The notes below the pieces were generated by a model, which was given only the letters and a program-made list of their open reading frames with translations, was not told where the DNA came from and did no database searches. Positions 227 through 15,153 of a stretch of 44,604 nt of DNA are shown piece by piece. Every line of letters starts with the position of its first letter. Positions within the stretch are counted from its first letter, which is position 1. The position numbers and the translations under genes were made by a program. The DNA is from an uncultured Bacillota bacterium (GTDB lineage: Bacteria; Bacillota; Clostridia; Christensenellales; Borkfalkiaceae), in contig CASEFE010000065.1 of NCBI GenBank assembly GCA_949287105.1, forward strand, positions 1 to 44,604, read 5' to 3'.

Positions 227-255
227 TTGACAAAACGGCAAGAGGGAATTATAAT
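227..255 (+). promoter_or_regulatory. Consensus promoter of the glnN operon
   Basis: TTGACA (227-232), a 17-bp spacer and TATAAT (250-255) match the sigma-A consensus perfectly at both boxes. The predicted start is near 262, about 96 nt before the glnN start. A promoter this strong with a structured leader suggests that control is exerted after initiation, through the attenuator at 276-341. Confidence 0.88.
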
Positions 256-275
256 CAAAGCATAAAATCAATAGA

Positions 276-341
276 GCAACAAAGGCGTTGCGGCTGACTT
301 CTTGGAAAAAAGAAGGAAAGTCTGCAACGCCTTTTGCTTTT
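276..341 (+). promoter_or_regulatory. ANTAR-type antiterminator/terminator leader of glnN
   Basis: Two mutually exclusive structures are visible. The early hairpin pairs GCAAC (276-280) with GTTGC (287-291) around a six-base loop AAAGGC, with A at loop position 1 and G at position 4 as in RNA targets of ANTAR proteins. The late hairpin pairs AAAGGCGTTGC (281-291) with GCAACGCCTTT (324-334), 11 perfect base pairs followed by a T-rich stretch to 341, an intrinsic terminator. The early hairpin consumes the 5' arm of the terminator. A nested CTTCTT/AAGAAG stem (298-303/310-315) has loop GGAAAA, which does not fit the hexaloop rule. ANTAR targets usually have two hexaloop hairpins, and only one clear example is seen here. 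Confidence 0.7.
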
Positions 342-357
342 ATACGGAGGTTTAAAA

Positions 358-2445
358 ATGAAAGTTCCCGAATTGTTTGCGTCGGATGTTTTCAATCGAC
401 AGGTAATGCAGGATAAATTACCGAAAGAAACGTACAAGTCACTGTTAAAGACGATAGACGAAGGTGCGCCCCTTGATATGAGCGTTGCGAACGTCGTTGC
501 CAACGCGATGAAAGATTGGGCTGTTGAAAAGGGAGCGACGCATTTTACGCATTGGTTTCAGCCGATGACAGGTATTACGGCCGAAAAGCATGATTCGTTC
601 ATTTCGCCCACAAAAGACGGGAAAGTGATCATGGATTTTTCGGGGAAAGAATTGGTGGTAGGCGAACCTGACGCATCGAGCTTTCCTTCGGGCGGAGTCC
701 GTGCAACGTTTGAGGCGCGTGGATATACGGCGTGGGATCCCACTTCGTTTGCTTTTGTAAAAGACGGAACGCTGTATATTCCCACTGCATTTTTCTCATA
801 TAGCGGAGAAGTGCTTGACAAAAAAACGCCGCTTCTGAAAAGCATGGCGGCGCTCAACAAGGAGTCATTGCGGATTTTGCGTTTATTCGGGAACACGGCT
901 GTAAAGCGCGTGGTTTCAACCGTGGGGGCAGAGCAGGAGTATTTTCTGATCGATAAAAAAATGTTTCAGGCGCGCAAAGACCTCGTTTATACGGGCAGAA
1001 CCTTGTTCGGAGCGAAACCGCCCAAAGGACAGGAATTAGAGGATCACTATTTTGGCGCGATCAAGACGCGTGTTTCCGCGTATATGAAAGATCTGGACGA
1101 AGAGCTTTGGAAATTAGGCATTCTTGCAAAGACAAAGCACAATGAAGTGGCGCCCTGTCAGCACGAGCTTGCGCCGGTATTTACAAGCACGAACGTAGCG
1201 TCAGACCAGAACCAAATCATCATGGAAACGATGAAAAAAGTGGCTGAGCGGCATGGACTGCAGTGCTTGCTGCATGAAAAACCTTTTGCGGGCATCAACG
1301 GCAGCGGAAAACATAACAACTGGTCGATGAGCACGGATACGGGCATCAATCTTTTTGATCCCGGTTCGACGCCGGCGGAAAACGGACAGTTCATGTTATT
1401 TTTGACTGCTGTGATCGTGGCCGTCAATGAGTACCAGGATTTATTGCGATTGTCGGTAGCGAGTGCGGGAAACGATCACCGGCTTGGTGCAAACGAAGCG
1501 CCTCCCGCCATTGTTTCCGTGTATTTGGGCGAAGAGCTGGAAGGGGTGATCGAGTCGTTGGAGACCGGCGTAAAATACAGCGGAAAGGGTAAAAAGACAA
1601 TGAAGCTCGGGGTAGATACTTTGCCGGAGCTTCCGAAAGATACGACAGACCGCAACCGCACGTCGCCGTTTGCATTTACGGGCAATAAATTTGAATTTCG
1701 TATGGTAGGCTCGTCATTTTCGCTTGCGGGGCCGAACATTATCATCAACACGGCGGTAGCCGATGTTTTGCGCAGGTTTGCCGACGAACTGGAAAAAGCA
1801 ACCGATTTCAATACCGCGTTGCATGATCTGGTGGTGCGCGAAATCAGTGAAAACAAGCGGATTTTGTTCCACGGGAACAACTATTCGGAAGAATGGAAAA
1901 GGGAAGCGGAACGGCGCGGACTGTTGAATCTGAAAAGTGCGGCGGAGGCATTGCCTTATTTTGCGAGCAAAAGAAATATTGCGTTGTTTGAACGCAACGG
2001 TGTATTTACCGAACGCGAAGTCGTCACCAGAACGGATATCATGCTTGAAAATTACTGCAAAGTCTTAAATATTGAAGCACTGACCATGTTGGAAATGGCG
2101 AAAAAGGACATATACCCGGCGGTGAACGGATATGTTGTTTCGTTGTGCGAAGCGATTGAGCGCAAAAAGAGTGTAATGGCGGATATCGATTGCGGAGCCG
2201 AACAAAAGCTGATCCGTAAGCTTTCAAAGCAGAATACGGCTATGATGTCGGATGCGGATCGGTTAGAGGAAGCGTTGCTTGCGGCAAAAGAATACGAAGA
2301 ACCGGCAGAGCTTGCGAAATTCTTTTCGGAACGTGTGATTCCGCTGATGCGCGAATTGCGTGCTTATGCAGATGACATGGAAATGTCTGTGGCTGAAAAA
2401 TACTGGCCGTTCCCTACGTATGGCGACATTTTGTTCAGCGTGTAA
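358..2445 (+). CDS. glnN: Glutamine synthetase type III
   Basis: Makes glutamine from glutamate, ammonia and ATP in the cytoplasm. At 695 aa it has the length of GSIII, far longer than GSI or GSII. The N-terminus ([13 protein letters not shown]) and the conserved blocks [35 protein letters not shown] and [10 protein letters not shown] (N314-S323, including the nucleotide/substrate-binding region) identify the family. The start at 358 is chosen because GGAGG lies at 346-350; an in-frame start at 334 would fall inside the terminator stem. It is cotranscribed with the ammonium transporter 31 nt downstream, and its leader carries the ANTAR-type attenuator. With GOGAT next door it forms the ammonia-assimilating cycle. 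Symbol glnN is the usual one for GSIII; some annotations use glnA. Confidence 0.95.
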
Positions 2446-2476: not shown

Positions 2477-4222
2477 ATGGATGGTATATTTGGCGCTACG
2501 GGGGTATGGTTCCTGATCGGTGCGATTCTCGTCTGGTTTATGCAGGCAGGATTTGCAATGGTAGAAACGGGGTTTACGAGAGCAAAGAATGCCGGCAATA
2601 TCATCATGAAAAACCTGATGGACTTTTGCATCGGCACGATCGTTTTTGTACTGTTGGGCGCAGGACTTCTGATGGGAGAAGATGCTTTATTCGGCCTGGT
2701 CGGGGTTCCGAATCTCGGCGTGTTCACTGATTTTGCCAATTACGATTGGTCGACGTTTTTCTTCAACCTTGTATTTTGCGCAACGACGGCAACGATCGTA
2801 TCGGGGGCAATGGCAGAGCGTACAAAATTTCTTTCGTATTGTATCTATTCGCTAGTCATCAGTGCAGTAGTGTATCCGATCGAGGCGCACTGGGTGTGGG
2901 GAGGCGGCTGGCTTTCGGGCGCTTTGTTCGGCACCGAAGGGTATTTCGGCAATGTAACATATATTGATTTTGCGGGGTCGTCGCTGATCCATATGGTCGG
3001 CGGAATATCTTCCTTTATCGGAGCGCTCATTCTGGGGCCTCGGTGGGGAAAATATCTGGATAAAAGCGGAAAGCCGACGCTTAATCGTAAACAGGCGGAA
3101 TATGTACGGGCGATACCGGGGCATAACCTTACGATCGGGGCTTTGGGCGTATTTATTCTTTGGTTTTGCTGGTACGGATTCAACGGAGCGGCGGCAAGCG
3201 ATATGGTGCAGTTTGCGCAGATTCTGGTCACGACCACGATCGCAACGGCGGCGGCAACTTGTGCGACGATGATTTTTACATGGGTCAAGAACAAAAAACC
3301 GGATGTATCCATGACGTTGAACGGATCGCTGGCCGGTCTGGTTGCGATCACAGCCGGATGTGCGGCGGTGGATGTTGTAGGCGCTTTCTTTATCGGAGTG
3401 GTTGCGGGCATTCTTGTGGTTGTAGCCGTAGAAGTCATCGATAAAAAATTTCATGTGGATGATCCGGTCGGTGCGATAGCGGTACATGGCTGCAACGGTT
3501 TATGGGGAACGATCGCCTGCGGATTATTTTCAGTCGAAACGGGGTTGTTTTATACGGGTAATTTTACGCAGCTTATAATACAGTTGATCGGGATCGTGTG
3601 CATAGCGGCTTGGACGATTGTCTGTATGGTAGCATTGTTTCAGATATTGAAACACACGGTCGGTTTGCGTGCCTCTAAGACGGAGGAAATGGAAGGCTTG
3701 GATAAACACGAACACGGTTTGCCCAGTGCCTATGCCGACTTTGTTCCCGTTCCTCTGGCGGCGGAAACGCTGGATCCGGAAGACGCACCGTTTGAAACAG
3801 CGGTCGATACGGACACGGAGCTTATAAAGATTCCGGATGCGTCAGGATATGCAACCGCGGATAAAAAACTGACGAAAGTAGTCATTTTAACAAAGCAATC
3901 GAAGTTTGAACAATTAAAACAGGCATTGAATGCCATCGGCGTTACGGGGTTGACGGTAACGCAGGTATTGGGATGCGGAGTTCAGAAGGGAGCAAGCGAA
4001 TATTACCGTGGCGTGAAAGTGGACATGGACTTGTTGCCGAAAGTGAAGGTGGAAGTTGTGATCAGTAAAATTCCCGTTTCGGAAGTGGTTGAGGCTGCCA
4101 GACGGGCGCTGTATACAGGTCATATCGGCGACGGAAAAATATTTGTGTACGACGTAGAAGGAGTTGTTCGGGTACGGACAGGCGAAACGGGATATGACGC
4201 GTTGCAGGATGAAGAGCAATAA
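2477..4222 (+). CDS. amt: Ammonium transporter fused to a PII signal protein
   Basis: A 581-aa membrane protein. Residues 1 to about 410 form the Amt/Mep/Rh channel with eleven hydrophobic segments. The twin pore histidines are visible as H172 (LIHMVGG) and H337 (AVHGCNG), and GAHWVWGGGW-like and ILWFCWYGFNGA blocks are typical. After an acidic linker (about 410-460), residues 464-577 are a complete GlnB/PII domain: KLTKVVILTKQSKFEQLKQA, then the T-loop with SEYYRG and FLPKVK-like VDMDLLPKVKVEVV. Known PII proteins plug Amt channels, so the fusion places sensor and channel in one chain. RBS AAAGAGG (2461-2467). It lies 31 nt after glnN and is followed by a strong terminator. Confidence 0.93.
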   Translation: MDGIFGATGVWFLIGAILVWFMQAGFAMVETGFTRAKNAGNIIMKNLMDFCIGTIVFVLLGAGLLMGEDALFGLVGVPNLGVFTDFANYDWSTFFFNLVFCATTATIVSGAMAERTKFLSYCIYSLVISAVVYPIEAHWVWGGGWLSGALFGTEGYFGNVTYIDFAGSSLIHMVGGISSFIGALILGPRWGKYLDKSGKPTLNRKQAEYVRAIPGHNLTIGALGVFILWFCWYGFNGAAASDMVQFAQILVTTTIATAAATCATMIFTWVKNKKPDVSMTLNGSLAGLVAITAGCAAVDVVGAFFIGVVAGILVVVAVEVIDKKFHVDDPVGAIAVHGCNGLWGTIACGLFSVETGLFYTGNFTQLIIQLIGIVCIAAWTIVCMVALFQILKHTVGLRASKTEEMEGLDKHEHGLPSAYADFVPVPLAAETLDPEDAPFETAVDTDTELIKIPDASGYATADKKLTKVVILTKQSKFEQLKQALNAIGVTGLTVTQVLGCGVQKGASEYYRGVKVDMDLLPKVKVEVVISKIPVSEVVEAARRALYTGHIGDGKIFVYDVEGVVRVRTGETGYDALQDEEQ

Positions 4223-4248: not shown

Positions 4249-4284
4249 AACAGGTTCCTGTCATGATGGCAGGAACCTGTTTTG
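4249..4284 (+). terminator. Terminator of the glnN-amt operon
   Basis: AACAGGTTCCTG (4249-4260) pairs perfectly with CAGGAACCTGTT (4270-4281/2) around a 9-nt loop and ends in TTTT. It lies 27 nt after the amt stop codon and separates the operon from the GOGAT operon. Confidence 0.92.
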
Positions 4285-4381: not shown

Positions 4382-4410
4382 TTGACGTGCAGAGAATGCC
4401 TGCATATAAT
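4382..4410 (+). promoter_or_regulatory. Promoter of the GOGAT/glutamine-use operon
   Basis: TTGACG (4382-4387), 17-bp spacer, TATAAT (4405-4410). Very A/T-rich tracts upstream (4312-4380) could act as an UP element. The leader from about 4417 to 4452 is short, and I see neither an ANTAR-type hairpin nor a terminator in it, unlike the glnN leader. No further terminator appears until 15244, so this promoter probably serves all ten genes. Confidence 0.8.
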
Positions 4411-4452: not shown

Positions 4453-5559
4453 ATGTTGTTAAGAGAAGGCGAGTTCAGAAATCCATCCGGCTGTGCCATT
4501 GCAGGCGTCATAGACAGAAGCGGACAGAGTATGAATGGTGAACAGATCATCGAAGCGATTTCGGTGATGCACGAAAGGTCGAACGGATTGGGCGGCGGAT
4601 TTGCGGGATATGGAATTTATCCGCATTTTAAAGATTTCTATGCGTTCCATCTGTTCTACGAAGGTGCAACGGCGCAGGAAGAAACGGAAACGTTTATCAA
4701 GCGTCATTTTGAGATAGTGTATTTTTCGGAGATTCAGACGCGCAAACTTCCTTCCATACAGAATGAACCGCTCATTTATCGATATTTTTTGGCGCCGTTG
4801 CCGCAAAAGCTTGCAAACAGCCATTTGGACGAGCGGGAATACGTAGCCCGATGTGTCAATCGGATCAATGCGCAGATAAAGGGCGCTTATGTTTTTTCGA
4901 GCGGAAAAAACATGGGGATTTTCAAAGGGGTCGGGTATCCGGAAGAGATCGGCCGGTTTTATCGGCTGGAAGAATATGAAGGATATGCGTGGACGAGTCA
5001 CGGAAGATACCCTACGAACACGCCCGGCTGGTGGGGCGGTGCGCATCCGTTCGGACTTTTGGATTTTTCCGTAGTGCATAACGGCGAAATTTCTTCTTAT
5101 GATGCAAATCGTCGTTATATTGAGATGTTCGGTTATAAATGCACATTGCAGACGGATACGGAAGTCATTTGCTATATCATCGATTATCTTGTGCGGAAGA
5201 GGGGGCTTACGCTTGAAGAAACAGCGCACGTAGTAGCGGCTTCGTTTTGGGAAACGATCGCAACAAAGGATGCGCAGGCGCGCGAGCAGGAGACCATTTT
5301 GCGCCGGATGTTTCCGTCGTTGCTGATCACAGGTCCGTTTTCGATTATTTTCGGATATGAGGGCGGCCTGATGGCGTTAAACGACCGTTTGAAGTTACGA
5401 TCGATGATCTGTGCGGAAAAGGGAGACCGAGCATATATTTCGAGTGAAGAGAGCGCGATACGAAAAATCGAACCGGATCTGGATCGGGTTTGGGCGCCTG
5501 CGGGGGGAGAAGCGGTCGTATTTGAATTGTACAAAAAAGAAGGAGAGCAAAAGAAATGA
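4453..5559 (+). CDS. Glutamate synthase, separate glutamine amidotransferase subunit
   Basis: A 368-aa class II (Ntn) glutaminase corresponding to domain 1 of bacterial GOGAT, here a stand-alone protein as in archaea and many Clostridia. It releases ammonia from glutamine for the synthase subunit. Family blocks: SGCAIAGVID near the start, ERSNGLGGGFAGYGIYP, HGRYPTNTPGWWGGAHPFG, VVHNGEISSY, and LQTDTEVICYIIDYL. The likely nucleophile is C14 and would need removal of a 13-residue propeptide, as in large-subunit GOGAT; this is inferred. The start at 4453 has AGGGAG at 4440-4445; an upstream in-frame start at 4282 would lie before the promoter. Its stop overlaps the next start as ATGA, so the two are translationally coupled. 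Confidence 0.9.
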   Translation: MLLREGEFRNPSGCAIAGVIDRSGQSMNGEQIIEAISVMHERSNGLGGGFAGYGIYPHFKDFYAFHLFYEGATAQEETETFIKRHFEIVYFSEIQTRKLPSIQNEPLIYRYFLAPLPQKLANSHLDEREYVARCVNRINAQIKGAYVFSSGKNMGIFKGVGYPEEIGRFYRLEEYEGYAWTSHGRYPTNTPGWWGGAHPFGLLDFSVVHNGEISSYDANRRYIEMFGYKCTLQTDTEVICYIIDYLVRKRGLTLEETAHVVAASFWETIATKDAQAREQETILRRMFPSLLITGPFSIIFGYEGGLMALNDRLKLRSMICAEKGDRAYISSEESAIRKIEPDLDRVWAPAGGEAVVFELYKKEGEQKK

Positions 5560-7064
5560 GCATGTACATACAGCCTGAATACGAAGTGATCCGCAATGAA
5601 CAAAGGTGTATAAATTGCCGGGCATGCGAAAGGCAATGTGCAAACGAAGTACATTTTTTTGATCCGAAAACGGGAAAAATGAATACGGATGATGCAAAAT
5701 GTGTCAACTGCCATCGCTGTGTCTGTATATGTCCGACGCACGCTTTGAAGATCGTGAGATCGGACGACACATATAAAGTGAATGCAAATTGGAGCAAACA
5801 AACGATCAACGAAGTGTATAAGCAGGCCGATTCGGGCGGCGTACTGTTGTCATCGATGGGCAATCCGAATCCTTTGGTGAGCTTTTGGGATAAAATGCTG
5901 ATCAATGCTTCGCAAGTTACAAATCCGCCCATTGATCCGTTGCGGGAACCGATGGAAACGCAAGTTTGTTTGGGTAAAAGGACGGCGAAGATCGAAAGGG
6001 ACGCAAGCGGCAAACTCAAAAACACATTGCTCCCGCACCTCGAATTAAAAGTTCCGATCATGTTTTCGGCAATGAGCTACGGATCGATCAGTTATAATGC
6101 GCATGCAAGTCTTGCGCGTGCGGCGCAAGAACTCGGTACTTATTATAATACGGGCGAGGGCGGGCTGCACAAAGATTTTTATAAGTACGGCAAAAATACG
6201 ATCGTGCAGGTAGCTTCGGGCAGATTTGGAGTTTTCAAGGATTATTTGGAAAATGCGGCGGCGATCGAAATCAAGATGGGACAAGGCGCAAAGCCGGGGA
6301 TCGGCGGGCATTTGCCGGGTACAAAAATATCATCGGACGTTGCCGAAACGCGCATGATTCCCGAAGGGGTAGATGCCATATCACCGGCTCCGCATCATGA
6401 TATTTATTCCATCGAAGATTTGCGGCAGCTCGTCTATTCGCTGAAAGAGACAACTTCGTATAAAAAACCGATCATTGTAAAGATTGCGGCCGTTCACAAT
6501 GTTGCGGCCATTGCAAGCGGTGTTGCCCGAAGCGGTGCGGATATAATTGCGATCGACGGGTATTGTGGCGGAACGGGTGCGGCCCCGACGAGGATTCGGG
6601 ACAACGTCGGGATACCCATTGAACTGGCTTTGGCGGCAGTTGATCAGCGATTGAGGGAAGAAGGGATCAGGGATGAAATTTCCATTGTTGCGAGCGGCTC
6701 GGTGCGGTCTTCATCGGATGTGGTGAAAGCGATCGCGTTGGGAGCGGATGCGTGTTATATCGGCACGGCGGCATTGTTGGCGATGGGTTGTCATCTTTGC
6801 CGAGCCTGTCAACAGGGGAAATGCAACTGGGGGATCGCAACGCAGCGTCCTGATCTCGTAAAGCGGTTGAATCCGGAAACGGCGTCCAAGAATTTGGTGA
6901 ATCTGGTTACGGCATGGGATCGGGAAATACAGGAAATGATGGGCGGAATGGGCATCAATTCGATCGAAGCGTTGCGCGGCAATCGGCTCATGCTTCGCGG
7001 AATCGGGCTTACGGATACCGAGTTAAAAGTTTTAGGCATCCGATATGCAGGTGAATCAATATAA
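5556..7064 (+). CDS. gltB: Glutamate synthase, FMN synthase subunit with N-terminal ferredoxin domain
   Basis: Forms glutamate from 2-oxoglutarate and channelled ammonia. Residues 1-65 are a two-[4Fe-4S] ferredoxin: C18-x2-C21-x2-C24-x3-C28 and C49-x2-C52-x2-C55-x3-C59-P. The remainder is the FMN-binding TIM barrel, with TGEGGLHKDFYKYG, AIEIKMGQGAKPGIGGHLPG, DAISPAPHHDIYSIEDL, IDGYCGGTGAAPT and VASGSVRSSSDVVKA. GCHLCRACQQGKC supplies the cysteines for the usual Fe-S centre. No GltD-type NAD(P)H subunit is encoded in the window, so electrons probably enter through the ferredoxin domain from a reduced ferredoxin or unlinked reductase. The start overlaps the previous stop (ATGA); an alternative ATG lies at 5562. 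Confidence 0.92.
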   Translation: MSMYIQPEYEVIRNEQRCINCRACERQCANEVHFFDPKTGKMNTDDAKCVNCHRCVCICPTHALKIVRSDDTYKVNANWSKQTINEVYKQADSGGVLLSSMGNPNPLVSFWDKMLINASQVTNPPIDPLREPMETQVCLGKRTAKIERDASGKLKNTLLPHLELKVPIMFSAMSYGSISYNAHASLARAAQELGTYYNTGEGGLHKDFYKYGKNTIVQVASGRFGVFKDYLENAAAIEIKMGQGAKPGIGGHLPGTKISSDVAETRMIPEGVDAISPAPHHDIYSIEDLRQLVYSLKETTSYKKPIIVKIAAVHNVAAIASGVARSGADIIAIDGYCGGTGAAPTRIRDNVGIPIELALAAVDQRLREEGIRDEISIVASGSVRSSSDVVKAIALGADACYIGTAALLAMGCHLCRACQQGKCNWGIATQRPDLVKRLNPETASKNLVNLVTAWDREIQEMMGGMGINSIEALRGNRLMLRGIGLTDTELKVLGIRYAGESI

Positions 7065-7087
7065 AAAATGAAAAAAACAGGGTGCGT

Positions 7088-7831
7088 ATGATTGCGCCGC
7101 GGGAGTATCCAATGGTAATCGAAGCGGAAGGAAAAACATTTGCCGCGTTGAACAGCGAAGTTCGCGCGTGCGAAGATTCAGAGATTTTGATCAAAAATTG
7201 TGTAGGGCAGCGGTATATAGCGGCGGGGCTATCGAAAAAAAGTCTGGCCATAGAAGGAACGCCGGGCAATGCTTTGGGGGCGTATCTGAACGGAGCAAAA
7301 ATTCTTTTGCGCGGCAACGCGCAAGAAGCGACGGGAGATACCATGAACGGCGGAGAGATCGTAGTATGCGGAAACGCGGGCGATGCCACGGGTTATGCCA
7401 TGCGCGGCGGAGAAATTTTTGTGCGCGGGGATGTGGGATACCGTTGCGGGATCCATATGAAAGCGTATAAAGAGCATAAGCCTGCGATCGTTGTGGGAGG
7501 CCGTGCGGGCAGTTTTTTAGGCGAATATCAGGCGGGAGGGATCCTGATTATATTGGGTAAAGATGTAAAAGGGTCTCCGGTCGGGAACTTTTGCGGAACC
7601 GGTATGCACGGCGGAGAAATATACCTTCGGTGCAATGCGTTGCCCAAACTGCTTCCGGCGCAGGTGAAGGCGGAAAGGCTGGAATCTTTGCCGGAAGGAA
7701 AAGTAAAGAGTTTAGTACAGAAATGGTGTGAACTGTTCAAGGAACAGGAATCGGAATTTTTAAATTCATCTTATTTTCGGTTGATTCCGAACAGTGAAAA
7801 CCCGTATAAGCAAATGTATACCGTGAATTAG
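7088..7831 (+). CDS. Glutamate synthase, GXGXG-domain subunit
   Basis: A 247-aa protein matching the C-terminal domain 3 of GOGAT, a right-handed beta-helix that in the fused enzyme packs between the synthase and amidotransferase parts. Repeating glycine motifs are obvious: GNALGAYLNGAKI, GDTMNGGEIVVCGNAGDATG, YAMRGGEIFVRGDVG and GAGSFLGEYQAGG-like segments. The ATG at 7088 is preferred, with AGGGTG at 7079-7084 in a ribosome-site position; a GTG at 7082 in the same frame is the alternative. It follows the synthase subunit by 23 nt, completing a three-gene GOGAT. Annotations may call it gltB3 or 'GltB alpha-like'. Confidence 0.87.
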   Translation: MIAPREYPMVIEAEGKTFAALNSEVRACEDSEILIKNCVGQRYIAAGLSKKSLAIEGTPGNALGAYLNGAKILLRGNAQEATGDTMNGGEIVVCGNAGDATGYAMRGGEIFVRGDVGYRCGIHMKAYKEHKPAIVVGGRAGSFLGEYQAGGILIILGKDVKGSPVGNFCGTGMHGGEIYLRCNALPKLLPAQVKAERLESLPEGKVKSLVQKWCELFKEQESEFLNSSYFRLIPNSENPYKQMYTVN

Positions 7832-7845
7832 AAGGCGGAGGGAAT

Positions 7846-8397
7846 ATGCAAAAAGTTGCGGTGAGGTGTGCCGGTCGAACGGCGGAAAAAAAGTTATCAG
7901 ATTATCTGAATGAGAACGGCTTTTCGGTTTCATCGGTGGACAGCGTCGCAGATTTTTCCGAGCAAACGGAAATAAAGGCGGTGATATTCGGGCTGCTGCC
8001 GATCAGCGAATGGGCAGAATCGGCAAACGCGGCAATGAAACTGCACATAGCGGTGGTCGTCATTGCGAAACCGGAAGAAAAAGAGCAGGCGGAGATGCTT
8101 TTATCGGGTACGGGTGCAGTAGTTTTTACTTTACCGATCAGGCCGGAGGGGTTATTGCAGGCACTTCGAACTTCGATAGAAATGAACGAGTGTGTGCGCA
8201 GGCTGAACGAAGAAAATGAGAAACTGAAAATTGCGTTGAGCGATATGAAACTGATCGACCGTGCAAAATGTGCTTTGATATGGTATCTGGGGATGACGGA
8301 AAAAGAATCGCATCGTTTTATTGAAAAGCAGGCCATGGATCGGCGGGTGAGCCGGCGTGAAATAGCTACGGAGATATTAAAAACATACGAATCGTAG
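7846..8397 (+). CDS. ANTAR-domain RNA-binding antiterminator with degenerate receiver
   Basis: A 183-aa regulator. Residues about 1-115 have a response-regulator-like alternating alpha/beta pattern. The position where the phosphorylated Asp should follow beta-3 is glycine (AVIFG, G49), and the late Lys-Pro is Arg-Pro (PIRPEG), so this is a pseudo-receiver. A coiled-coil (about 118-140) leads to the ANTAR domain (about 135-178): KLIDRAKCALIWYLGMTEKE, ESHRFIEKQAMDRR and SRREIATEIL, a nearly textbook match. ANTAR proteins bind hexaloop RNA hairpins and prevent termination. The natural local target is the glnN leader (276-341). The input signal cannot be phosphorylation of the usual kind; contact with a GOGAT or PII partner is speculation. 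RBS GGAGGG at 7836-7841. Confidence 0.92.
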   Translation: MQKVAVRCAGRTAEKKLSDYLNENGFSVSSVDSVADFSEQTEIKAVIFGLLPISEWAESANAAMKLHIAVVVIAKPEEKEQAEMLLSGTGAVVFTLPIRPEGLLQALRTSIEMNECVRRLNEENEKLKIALSDMKLIDRAKCALIWYLGMTEKESHRFIEKQAMDRRVSRREIATEILKTYES

Positions 8398-9267: not shown

Positions 9268-10704
9268 ATGGATGAGATTCATGAAGAGTGCGGCGTATTC
9301 GGTATTTATTGCAGGGAAAGGCAGGATGTCGTTTCGCAGGCGTATTACGGGCTGTATGCGTTGCAGCATCGCGGTCAGGAATGTTGCGGGATCGCCGTAG
9401 GTGACGACGGGTATTTGCACTGTCATAAACAGGCGGGACTGGTCAGTGAAGTTTTTACGCCCGGAGTTCGTAAAGAAATGGGATTCGGAAACATGGCGGT
9501 CGGGCATGTGCGTTATGGTACGACGGGTGCAAACGATCCGAGAAATGCGCAGCCGATCGTCGTCAATCATAAGAAAGGCAAAATGGCGCTTGTACATAAC
9601 GGCAACCTTTCCAATGCTTCAAATTTAAGGTCGAAACTCGAATCGAAGGGCGCTATTTTCCATACGACGAGCGATTCGGAAGTGATCGCGTATCTGATCA
9701 CGAAAGAACGCCTGCAAAGTCCGTCCATTGAGGAGGCGATTGAGCGTACGATCCCGCATTTGCGCGGCGCGTATTCCATGATCATAATGTCGCCGACAAA
9801 GTTGATCGCCGTGCGTGATCCGAACGCATTTCGTCCTTTATGTTACGGAAAAACGGAAGACGGTTCTTATGTAATAGCATCGGAAAGCTGTGTGCTGGAT
9901 GCGGTGGGAGCAAAATTTATACGGGATCTGGATGCAGGGGAGATTCTTGTTTTCGATAAAGACGGGGTGCGATCGTTGCGCACGCATTGCAACAAAAGAA
10001 AGCCTTCGGTCTGTATCTTCGAATATATTTATTTTGCGCGCCCCGATTCGTGCATAGACGGAACATGGGTGCACGACGCACGGAAAAAGGCGGGGAGGAT
10101 CTTGGCGCAGACGTATCCTGTGGAAGCAGATGTGGTGATCGGAGTTCCCGATTCGGGCATCGATGCGGCGATCGGGTATGCAGAATTTGCAAAAATACCA
10201 TTCGATATGGGATTTGTAAAGAACAAGTACATAGGAAGAACGTTTATTGCGCCTTCCGATGATCAGAGAAGGAACGGGGTACGGATCAAATTAAATCCGG
10301 TCAGGAGTGTTGTCAACGGGAAACGCGTGGTGTTGATCGACGATTCGATCGTGCGCGGTACGACGAGCCGAAGAATCGTTAAAATGCTGCGGGATGCGGG
10401 GGCAAAGGAAGTTCATTTGCGCGTATCCGCGCCGCCGTTTTTATATCCGTGCCATTTCGGAACGGATATCGATTCAAAAGAAAATCTGATTGCGTGCGGG
10501 CATTCGGTTACGGAAATAGCAAAAATTATCGGAGCCGATTCGGTCGGATTTTTTCCGATCCGGAAGCTGGATCAGCTGGTGGCATTGCCGCAAGGGTTTG
10601 GGTTTTGTAAAGCGTGTTTTGACGGAAAAAATCCTGTTCGGGTATCAAAAGATGCGGGCAAAAACAAATTTGAGCAAAAGATCGGGGCGACCCGATCGGA
10701 ATGA
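9268..10704 (+). CDS. purF: Amidophosphoribosyltransferase
   Basis: First committed step of purine synthesis: PRPP plus glutamine gives phosphoribosylamine. The 478-aa protein starts [15 protein letters not shown]8 is the glutaminase nucleophile after removal of a short propeptide. [13 protein letters not shown] and [10 protein letters not shown] belong to the Ntn domain. The PRPP loop [15 protein letters not shown] has D358 and D359. Extra cysteines (C in [28 protein letters not shown] and FCKACFDG) are those of the oxygen-sensitive [4Fe-4S] Bacillus-type enzyme. The gene is separate from other pur genes in this window and sits among glutamine-using enzymes. RBS GAGG at 9254-9257. Confidence 0.96.
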
Positions 10705-13569: not shown

Positions 13570-15153
13570 ATGTGTTCTATATTTTGTTGTACCACCAAAC
13601 GAATCGATAAAGCAAAAATGAATGAATGTTTTTATAAAACCATCTCGCGCGGTCCGGACATGACAGCCATCGATGAAACGCCGAGCGGATACATGGGATT
13701 TCATCGGCTTGCCATCATGGGATTGAATGCCGAGGGAATGCAGCCGTTCTGGGTCGGGAACAGCATGCTGGTGTGCAACGGTGAAATATACGGTTTTCGG
13801 AAACTAAAAAAGCAATTGCAGGCAAAAGGATACCACTTTCATTCAGACAGTGACTGTGAAATCCTGCTTCCGATGTATGCTGAATACGGATTAAAAATGT
13901 TTTCGATGTTAGATGCCGAATTTGCCCTTGCATTGTACGACGGAGAAACGGGTGAATACATTGCCGCGCGGGATCCGATCGGTATACGTCCGCTGTATTA
14001 CGGATATTTGGAAGACGGTGCGATCGTATTTGCGAGCGAACCAAAAAATCTGGAAGGTTTTGTGGCGGGGAAAATATCGCCTTTTCCGCCGGGGAAATAT
14101 TATTATAAAGGCAAATTTCATACGTATTGCGATATTGCGGCGGTGCAAGCTTATCAAAAAGGGGATTTAAGCGAAATCTGCGAAAATATCCGAAAAAAGT
14201 TGATAGCGGGCGTCGAAAAGCGTCTGGACAGCGATGCTCCGGTCGGTTTTTTGCTTTCGGGCGGTTTAGACAGTTCGCTGGTATGTGCGATCGGGGCGAG
14301 GGCAATGAATAAGCCGATACGCACGTTTGCCATCGGCATGGATCAGGATGCGATCGATTTGAAATATGCCCGTGAAGTGGCGGAATATATTCATTCCGAA
14401 CATAGGGAAATCATCATAACCCGCGATGATGTTATCGGGGCGCTGGAAGAGGTGATTTATGCTTTGGGAACGTATGATATAACTACGATCCGGGCATCGA
14501 TAGGAATGTATCTTTTATGCCGTGAAATTCATAGAACGAGCAATGTTCGGGTACTTTTGACGGGGGAAATTTCTGACGAATTATTCGGGTACAAATACAC
14601 CGATTTTGCACCGAGTGCGGAAGAATTTCAAAAAGAATCAAAAAAACGTATTCGCGAACTGCATATGTATGACGTTTTGCGGGCGGATCGATGTATTTCC
14701 GTGCATTCGATGGAAGCGCGGGTACCGTTTGGGGATCTTGATTTTGTGAAGTACGTAATGAGCATCGATCCTGAACTGAAAATGAATAAATACGGAAAGG
14801 GAAAATACTTATTGCGCCGTGCCTTTGAAGGGGATTGGCTTCCGCGCAATATCTTGTATCGTGAGAAGGCGGCATTTTCGGATGCGGTCGGGCATTCGAT
14901 GGTCAATGATCTGAAACTTTATGCGGAAACGAAGTACGGTCCCGATTGGGAAAGCGAGGCGAAAAAATATTCGTATCATGCAAAACCGTTTACAAAAGAG
15001 AGTTTGCTGTACCGAGAAATATTTGAAAAATTCTATCCCGGGCAAGCAGAAATGATCAAAGATTTTTGGATGCCGAACAAAAATTGGGAAGGGTGCAATG
15101 TCGACGATCCGAGTGCGCGCGTTTTGTCCAATTATGGAGACAGCGGCAAGTAA
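13570..15153 (+). CDS. asnB: Asparagine synthetase (glutamine-hydrolysing)
   Basis: Makes asparagine from aspartate with ATP and glutamine. The 527-aa protein starts MCSIFCC, giving the Ntn nucleophile C2 after Met removal. The amidotransferase half includes ISRGPDMTAI and MLVCNGEIYGF; the synthetase half has the ATP pyrophosphatase loop LLSGGLDSSL (S230-S236) and LTGEISDELFGYKY. It ends the operon: it starts 15 nt after dapL and is followed, about 90 nt on, by a terminator. Confidence 0.95.
   Translation: MCSIFCCTTKRIDKAKMNECFYKTISRGPDMTAIDETPSGYMGFHRLAIMGLNAEGMQPFWVGNSMLVCNGEIYGFRKLKKQLQAKGYHFHSDSDCEILLPMYAEYGLKMFSMLDAEFALALYDGETGEYIAARDPIGIRPLYYGYLEDGAIVFASEPKNLEGFVAGKISPFPPGKYYYKGKFHTYCDIAAVQAYQKGDLSEICENIRKKLIAGVEKRLDSDAPVGFLLSGGLDSSLVCAIGARAMNKPIRTFAIGMDQDAIDLKYAREVAEYIHSEHREIIITRDDVIGALEEVIYALGTYDITTIRASIGMYLLCREIHRTSNVRVLLTGEISDELFGYKYTDFAPSAEEFQKESKKRIRELHMYDVLRADRCISVHSMEARVPFGDLDFVKYVMSIDPELKMNKYGKGKYLLRRAFEGDWLPRNILYREKAAFSDAVGHSMVNDLKLYAETKYGPDWESEAKKYSYHAKPFTKESLLYREIFEKFYPGQAEMIKDFWMPNKNWEGCNVDDPSARVLSNYGDSGK

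Follow-up and report, generated by a model that had tools for sequence, protein, structure and literature searches.

In the window (the whole stretch of DNA that was analysed, 44,604 nucleotides), the type III glutamine synthetase gene glnN is preceded by a leader in which a hairpin with a six-base loop shares a strand with an intrinsic terminator, and an ANTAR protein is encoded in the neighbouring GOGAT operon. The locus raises the question of whether this leader is a switch worked by that protein, and whether a single hexaloop can serve such a switch. From sequence comparison, the glnN-amt leader is very probably a transcription attenuator under the GOGAT-linked ANTAR protein, with one hexaloop only.

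The principle of ANTAR antitermination of nitrogen assimilation is already known, and NitR is a precedent. NitR of Clostridium saccharobutylicum (Stutz et al. 2007) is described as an ANTAR antiterminator that induces GS/GOGAT genes under nitrogen limitation (PMC6316151). ANTAR RNAs were placed before nitrogen genes, including those for ammonium transporters and enzymes of glutamine and glutamate synthesis, by Ramesh et al. 2012 (PMC3369931). What is new, as far as sequence can tell, is the one-hexaloop architecture near the transcript 5' end and its breadth across many Clostridia. No report of a single-hexaloop ANTAR leader for glnN was found in an open-access library.

Leader and genes of the glnN locus

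The first-pass annotation had described a perfect consensus promoter, a hairpin whose six-base loop carries A1 and G4, the overlap of this hairpin with the 5' arm of an 11-bp terminator stem ending in T-rich sequence, and a nearby ANTAR gene in the GOGAT operon. All four were recovered, and the coordinates are given in Table 1.

Table 1. Features of the glnN leader and the adjacent nitrogen genes in the window
Feature	Position	Strand	Remarks
Sigma-70-type promoter TTGACA-17-TATAAT	227..255	+	12/12 consensus
Hexaloop hairpin GCAAC[AAAGGC]GTTGC	276..291	+	Loop A1 and G4; proposed ANTAR target and antiterminator
Intrinsic terminator	281..341	+	11-bp stem 281-291/324-334, inner helix, T-rich tail 332-341
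glnN, type III glutamine synthetase	358..2445	+	Pfam GSIII_N, Gln-synt_C; first gene 3' of the attenuator
Ammonium transporter with fused C-terminal PII domain (amt-PII)	2477..4222	+	Pfam Ammonium_transp, P-II
Separate promoter of the GOGAT-ANTAR genes	4382..4410	+	11/12 consensus
Three GOGAT genes	4453-7831		ATG at 4453 (by eye)
ANTAR protein gene	7846..8397	+	PF03861, 55.9 bits against a cut-off of 27.3; proposed regulator

The glnN transcript is predicted to start near 262, and the leader is about 80 nt long from there to the end of the U-tract. The strand 281-291 is common to both helices, the 3' half of the hexaloop hairpin being the 5' arm of the terminator. The RNA of 262-345 folded at -36 kcal/mol (z = -7.5), and none of 200 shuffles was equally stable. 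In stepwise folding, the minimum-energy form had the hexaloop up to position 325 and the terminator instead by 330; taken alone, the hexaloop had an energy of -4.7 kcal/mol and the terminator -29.9 kcal/mol.

A catalogued RNA such as a riboswitch was sought and rejected: no Rfam family reached its gathering score in the 44,604 bases, and only weak matches to unrelated families were found at 200-420. No GlnR/TnrA-type box (at most one mismatch) was present near glnN; the whole window held 16, with 12.0 expected. A conserved element at about 189-206, roughly TATAAATTTTCGTGATAA (by eye), was seen in the window and in genus relatives. Among the 29 hexaloop leaders of the genus, 23 have the motif TGATA 25-26 nt before the -35 box, and this conserved element is possibly an operator or an upstream promoter element.

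The gap between glnN and amt-PII is 31 nt, and amt-PII is the second gene of the presumed operon. A terminator-like inverted repeat followed by T (by eye) stands at 4250-4283, 3' of amt-PII. The GOGAT leader in the window is short, and no hexaloop or attenuator was seen in it. Since the GOGAT-ANTAR genes are served by a separate promoter without a leader attenuator, the supply of ANTAR protein would be independent of the switch. The ANTAR gene is the only one found in the window's genome (assembly 81.6% complete). The window thus has an ANTAR gene together with GS/GOGAT genes, the gene arrangement sought for a NitR-type system.

The purF and asnB genes of the window (9268-10704 and 13570-15153) had no hexaloop motif nearby at up to one mismatch, unlike relatives, which do have the hexaloop before purF and asnB. 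A search for further targets in the same genome with a covariance model gave weak next matches, the best at E = 0.058. This match has an A1/G4 hexaloop but lies in coding sequence without a promoter (by eye), and no promoter-hexaloop-terminator arrangement was present in the following four as printed.

A second glnN copy in the window's genome (L061) and the glnN loci L065, L067 and L072 keep a promoter-proximal hairpin and a terminator. By eye, the loops of these leaders and of L074 have 5 nt or lack A1, as in ACAGC[GAGAC]GCTGT. L074, of the same altered leader type, is the only glnN found in G031, a genome without a detected ANTAR gene. These five leaders may have escaped ANTAR control, or a different factor may act on them.

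Conservation of the leader and its association with ANTAR genes

The first set comprised 76 glnN matches in 61 genus and order genomes. From these, 70 upstreams in 49 genomes were read, with G022, G042, G047, G054 and one partial G035 match omitted. In 37 of the 70, a C[AANGG(C/T)]G hexaloop was present on a stem of 4 or more pairs. The first-pass annotation had suggested folding the leader with covariance across related genomes, and in an alignment of 34 of the 37 hexaloop leaders (L005, L024 and L063 omitted) hexaloop and terminator were both conserved and both covaried. In the hexaloop helix, 97.6% of cells were paired, 4 of 5 pairs varied on both sides and the closing C-G pair was constant; this pairing and the constancy of the loop bases are partly by construction. 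None of 500 shuffles reached the covariation score or the number of covarying cells of the hexaloop and 45 of 500 reached its count of covarying pairs, a comparison biased upward because the rows were chosen by loop pattern. In the terminator helix, 95% of cells were paired and 8 of 14 pairs varied on both sides. The loop bases G4 to C6 are also part of the terminator stem, so their conservation does not come from ANTAR alone.

In a hand tally of the genus, a hexaloop glnN leader was found in 24 of 27 examined genomes with ANTAR and in 3 of 7 examined without (p = 0.02). The exceptions were thus three ANTAR-positive genomes lacking the hexaloop and three ANTAR-negative genomes carrying it (assemblies 74-89% complete). 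Two genomes without a glnN match and one with partial matches only were left out of the tally.

The association was then examined in an order-wide draw of 297 genomes, in which 109 glnN upstreams were read among the matches listed. These were 29 loci that the search gave, 6 of which belong to first-set genomes, and 80 further down the ranked list with first-set genomes excluded; they were not picked for the hairpin. A fixed rule was applied, in which a terminator had to have 8 or more net pairs as well as a T-rich tail, and a competing hairpin 4 or more pairs. Among these listed matches, a terminator-competing A1/G4 hexaloop was found in 59 of 85 upstreams from ANTAR-positive genomes and in 2 of 24 from ANTAR-negative ones (Fisher p = 6e-8); this and the other Fisher values are overstated because related genomes are not independent, and p is only indicative. 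The ANTAR-negative class is also blurred by incomplete assemblies. The terminator defined by the rule was present in 72 of the 85 and 13 of the 24 listed upstreams; given a terminator, 59 of the 72 ANTAR-positive upstreams had the A1/G4 hexaloop, and 2 of the 13 ANTAR-negative ones did (p = 6e-6). The remaining 26 of the 85 listed ANTAR-positive upstreams had no such hexaloop, second gene copies being counted in. When competing hexaloops in the listed matches were classed by loop positions 1 and 4, the ANTAR-positive group had 59 AG and 6 of all other classes together, and the ANTAR-negative group 2 AG and 6 others. In the 59 listed leaders, position 2, which is free under the rule, was A in all and position 5 was G in 55; position 3 was variable. 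At the level of genomes, 58 of the 76 sampled ANTAR-positive genomes had such a leader among the matches listed.

The covariance model matched 63 of the 297 genomes. ANTAR was found in 60 of these 63 against 72 of the 234 unmatched genomes (p = 6e-22, or 7e-20 without the nine seed genomes). A C[AANG hexaloop was present in 64 of 70 model matches read (72 listed); 49 of the 64 precede glnN and 4 precede asnA, and the other 11 are followed by none of the genes tested. G063, G218 and G241 had a model match and no detected ANTAR. The hexaloop was absent from the matches in G063 and G218 and present in G241, and a different glnN of G063 does carry it. An antisense reading of 15 minus-strand model matches in L101-L130 was rejected, 13 of the 15 carrying the hexaloop on the right strand. 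In 24 of the 70 model-match loci read (for example L103, L110, L130 and L158), gltB lies upstream on the opposite strand. The attenuator in relatives is thus often between divergent glnN and gltB; in the window the two genes are in tandem.

A pattern consisting of promoter and hexaloop, with no gene and no terminator specified, was searched in the genomes of 84,980 species. At least 119 stretches were found, and the 80 loci listed contained 82 sites. Each site was assigned to a gene by similarity over the next 450 nt or so; for asnA and gdhA, the queries were drawn from two of the loci. Nitrogen genes followed 78 of the 82 listed sites: glnN 50, amt-PII 14, asnA 6, asnB 4, purF 2, gltB 1 and gdhA 1. 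The four listed sites without one were followed by a contig end, an SBP_bac_5 protein, an isochorismatase-type protein and one other protein. A terminator started near the loop at 81 of the 82 listed sites, by a rather loose rule used without a shuffled control. ANTAR was present in 48 of 50 genomes checked from the 80 listed loci and in 124 of 245 class-wide (p = 9e-11), two groups unmatched in relatedness and completeness; the two genomes of the 50 without detected ANTAR were those of L216 and L241. The listed sites include records titled Ruminococcus, Pseudoflavonifractor, Pygmaiobacter and others; by their titles, the cultured carriers include Ruminococcus flavefaciens ATCC 19208, Pygmaiobacter massiliensis and Pseudoflavonifractor gallinarum DSM 107456. 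L202 and L216 are in records titled Alistipes and Bacteroidales (Bacteroidota), which may be misnamed, contaminated or the result of transfer. The same gene themes, ammonium transporters and the synthesis of glutamine and glutamate, are described for published ANTAR nitrogen targets (PMC3369931, PMC8164766). The site in the listed relatives, unlike the GS/GOGAT target described for NitR, also stands before amt, asnA, asnB, purF and gdhA.

A plain, unregulated terminator or a 5' stabilising hairpin was also considered, and terminator-like sites are common (16 in the first 10 kb of the window against 11.9 expected). It would not be expected to give two mutually exclusive helices that both covary, or a motif that follows nitrogen genes and ANTAR, and a constitutive terminator ahead of glnN would be costly; this explanation is hardly credible. 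The reader of the hexaloop could also be a small molecule, as in a glutamine-sensing riboswitch, or a different RNA-binding protein, with ANTAR a mere neighbour, and a few hexaloop-bearing genomes do lack a detected ANTAR. Hexaloop and ANTAR nevertheless co-occur strongly in the order-wide, covariance-model and gene-blind sets, the A1/G4 loop class is the ANTAR rule and no Rfam family was recovered at gathering score, which makes such a reader very unlikely. RNA antitermination of glnN-amt, as proposed in the first-pass annotation, thus gains comparative support from helix covariation, ANTAR association and the gene-blind recovery of nitrogen genes.

Number of hexaloops in the leader

Published ANTAR target RNAs are defined as having two hexaloops. 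For EutV, of the best-studied ANTAR system, the binding unit is reported to be one hexaloop and both hexaloops are reported as required in vivo; the same paper raises the role of single hexaloops as a question (PMC8934654). In a survey of actinobacteria, the accepted form was a dual stem-loop whose linker measured 2-25 nt, and some 400 targets of firmicutes and proteobacteria are described there as dual (PMC8164766). Single-hexaloop leaders would probably escape a survey that demands dual stem-loops.

No second hexaloop was evident to the first-pass annotation, and none with A1/G4 was found within reach of 276-291 in the window. The terminator apex was considered as a second hexaloop and rejected: by eye, the inner hairpins of the genus often have GGAAAA, GGCAAA or GGGAAA, without A1/G4, and these apex loops fit a GNRA tetraloop inside a G-A pair.

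The search was extended to the 59 ANTAR-positive hexaloop leaders among the order-wide matches listed. It was independent of the start site, and shuffles gave the chance level. Within 41 nt of the hairpin, a second A1/G4 hexaloop with a stem of at least 3 was found upstream in 1 of the 59 listed leaders (3.0 expected) and downstream in 1 (2.3 expected); with a stem of at least 4, the counts were 1 and 0. A promoter of at least 10/12 was present upstream of the hairpin in all 59 listed leaders, against 1.7% of shuffled upstreams. The distance from the end of the -10 box to the inner arm was 7-25 nt in 58 of them and 42 nt in one. If the start is assumed 7 nt past the -10 box, these 58 leaders have the inner arm 0-18 nt from the transcript start. 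From the inner 3' arm of the hexaloop to its terminator partner, the distance in the listed leaders was 12-33 nt (median 16), with 12-17 nt in 41 of 59, which would leave very little time for a protein to act.

The main alternative is a classical dual-hexaloop target in which the first hairpin (P1) has diverged, or is part of a longer transcript from an upstream promoter. EutV-type antitermination reportedly requires P1 (PMC8934654), and the TGATA element of the genus leaders (23 of 29) could be part of another promoter. Against this, second A1/G4 hexaloops within 41 nt are no commoner than chance on either side of the hairpin in the listed leaders; all 59 have a strong promoter ahead of the hairpin, within 25 nt in 58, and in 41 only 12-17 nt separate the hexaloop arm from its terminator partner. 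The dual-hexaloop explanation is considered unlikely, and between the two options offered at first reading, a minimal motif is favoured over a divergent second hairpin. The lack of an above-chance second hexaloop together with the nearby strong promoter looks like a genuine single-hexaloop design. As no second hexaloop with a 2-25 nt linker was found, the leader was not assigned to the classical dual-hexaloop family.

Some loci have more than one site. L092, L413 and L429 have two A1/G4 hexaloops before one glnN, and L223 has two complete promoter-hexaloop units 166 nt apart. At the single locus L270, purF and asnB are each preceded by a site of their own.

The ANTAR protein and the proposed mechanism

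The three-dimensional structure of the ANTAR protein was modelled with AlphaFold (pLDDT 94.7). The model showed a receiver-like domain, a long helix and an ANTAR bundle. Its best PDB matches were EutV, then Rv1626 and AmiR, and the TM score was 0.78 for the best full-length matches, EutV and AmiR. Alignments by phmmer were obtained with Rv1626 (1s8n), the nitrate regulatory protein NasR (4akk), AmiR and EutV. Like the window protein, AmiR has an ANTAR and a receiver-like domain, and it has His at the position of EutV Tyr164. AmiR is controlled by AmiC.

Among the EutV residues tied to RNA (PMC8934654), the window protein retains K143, K149, M172 (its Met164) and R175, whereas K147 is replaced by R and Y164 by H. 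At the EutV contacts R142 and R177, the window protein has M and S. The equivalents of EutV K149 and M172 are present in all 40 aligned ANTAR proteins. The phospho-acceptor Asp is absent from the window protein and from all 40 aligned proteins; the 40 are the ATG-starting ones among 48 extracted, and the eight omitted include L131, a EutV-like protein with Asp at this position. As the phospho-acceptor Asp is lacking, the signal would more likely be a partner protein or a ligand, as in AmiR, than phosphorylation. The PII domain beside the ANTAR regulator is a natural candidate for this signal. Its source might be the Amt-fused PII, GSIII or a metabolite, all three being guesses. Homologues of amt-PII follow the same attenuator at 14 of the 82 listed gene-blind sites.

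The leader and protein resemble the EutV system of Enterococcus faecalis in that an A1/G4 hexaloop overlaps a terminator and the ANTAR protein has a REC-like N-terminal domain and a coiled coil, EutV being the best fold match. They differ in that the eut leaders have two hexaloops, P1 and P2, both reportedly required in vivo (PMC8934654), and the window leader has one; EutV is a phosphorylated response regulator, and the window protein lacks the phospho-acceptor Asp. With NitR, compared by description only, the window protein shares membership of the ANTAR family and, as proposed, regulation of GS/GOGAT by antitermination (PMC6316151).

The following mechanism is proposed, in which the transcription start, the binding of ANTAR protein to RNA, the readthrough and the direction of control are inferred. 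By default, the nascent RNA would pass into the terminator fold, and transcription would end before glnN. Under nitrogen limitation, by analogy with NitR, the ANTAR protein would be activated and would bind the single A1/G4 hexaloop near the transcript 5' end. The bound protein would hold the 3' arm of the hexaloop and thereby block the terminator, and glutamine synthetase and the Amt-PII transporter would then be made.

It is on balance probable that such leaders form a widespread clostridial class of ANTAR antiterminators, with a single hexaloop at the extreme 5' end and without a recruitment hairpin or phosphorylation, that runs core ammonium-assimilation genes, either replacing DNA-binding regulators or acting in addition to them. 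If so, the ANTAR protein must bind extremely fast or ride with RNA polymerase, and the controlled set would be glnN, amt-PII, asnA, asnB, purF, gltB and gdhA. Natural switches that seemingly have a single hexaloop open the recruitment model to a direct test. These leaders also provide a candidate RNA-level switch of ammonium assimilation in gut and rumen Clostridia.
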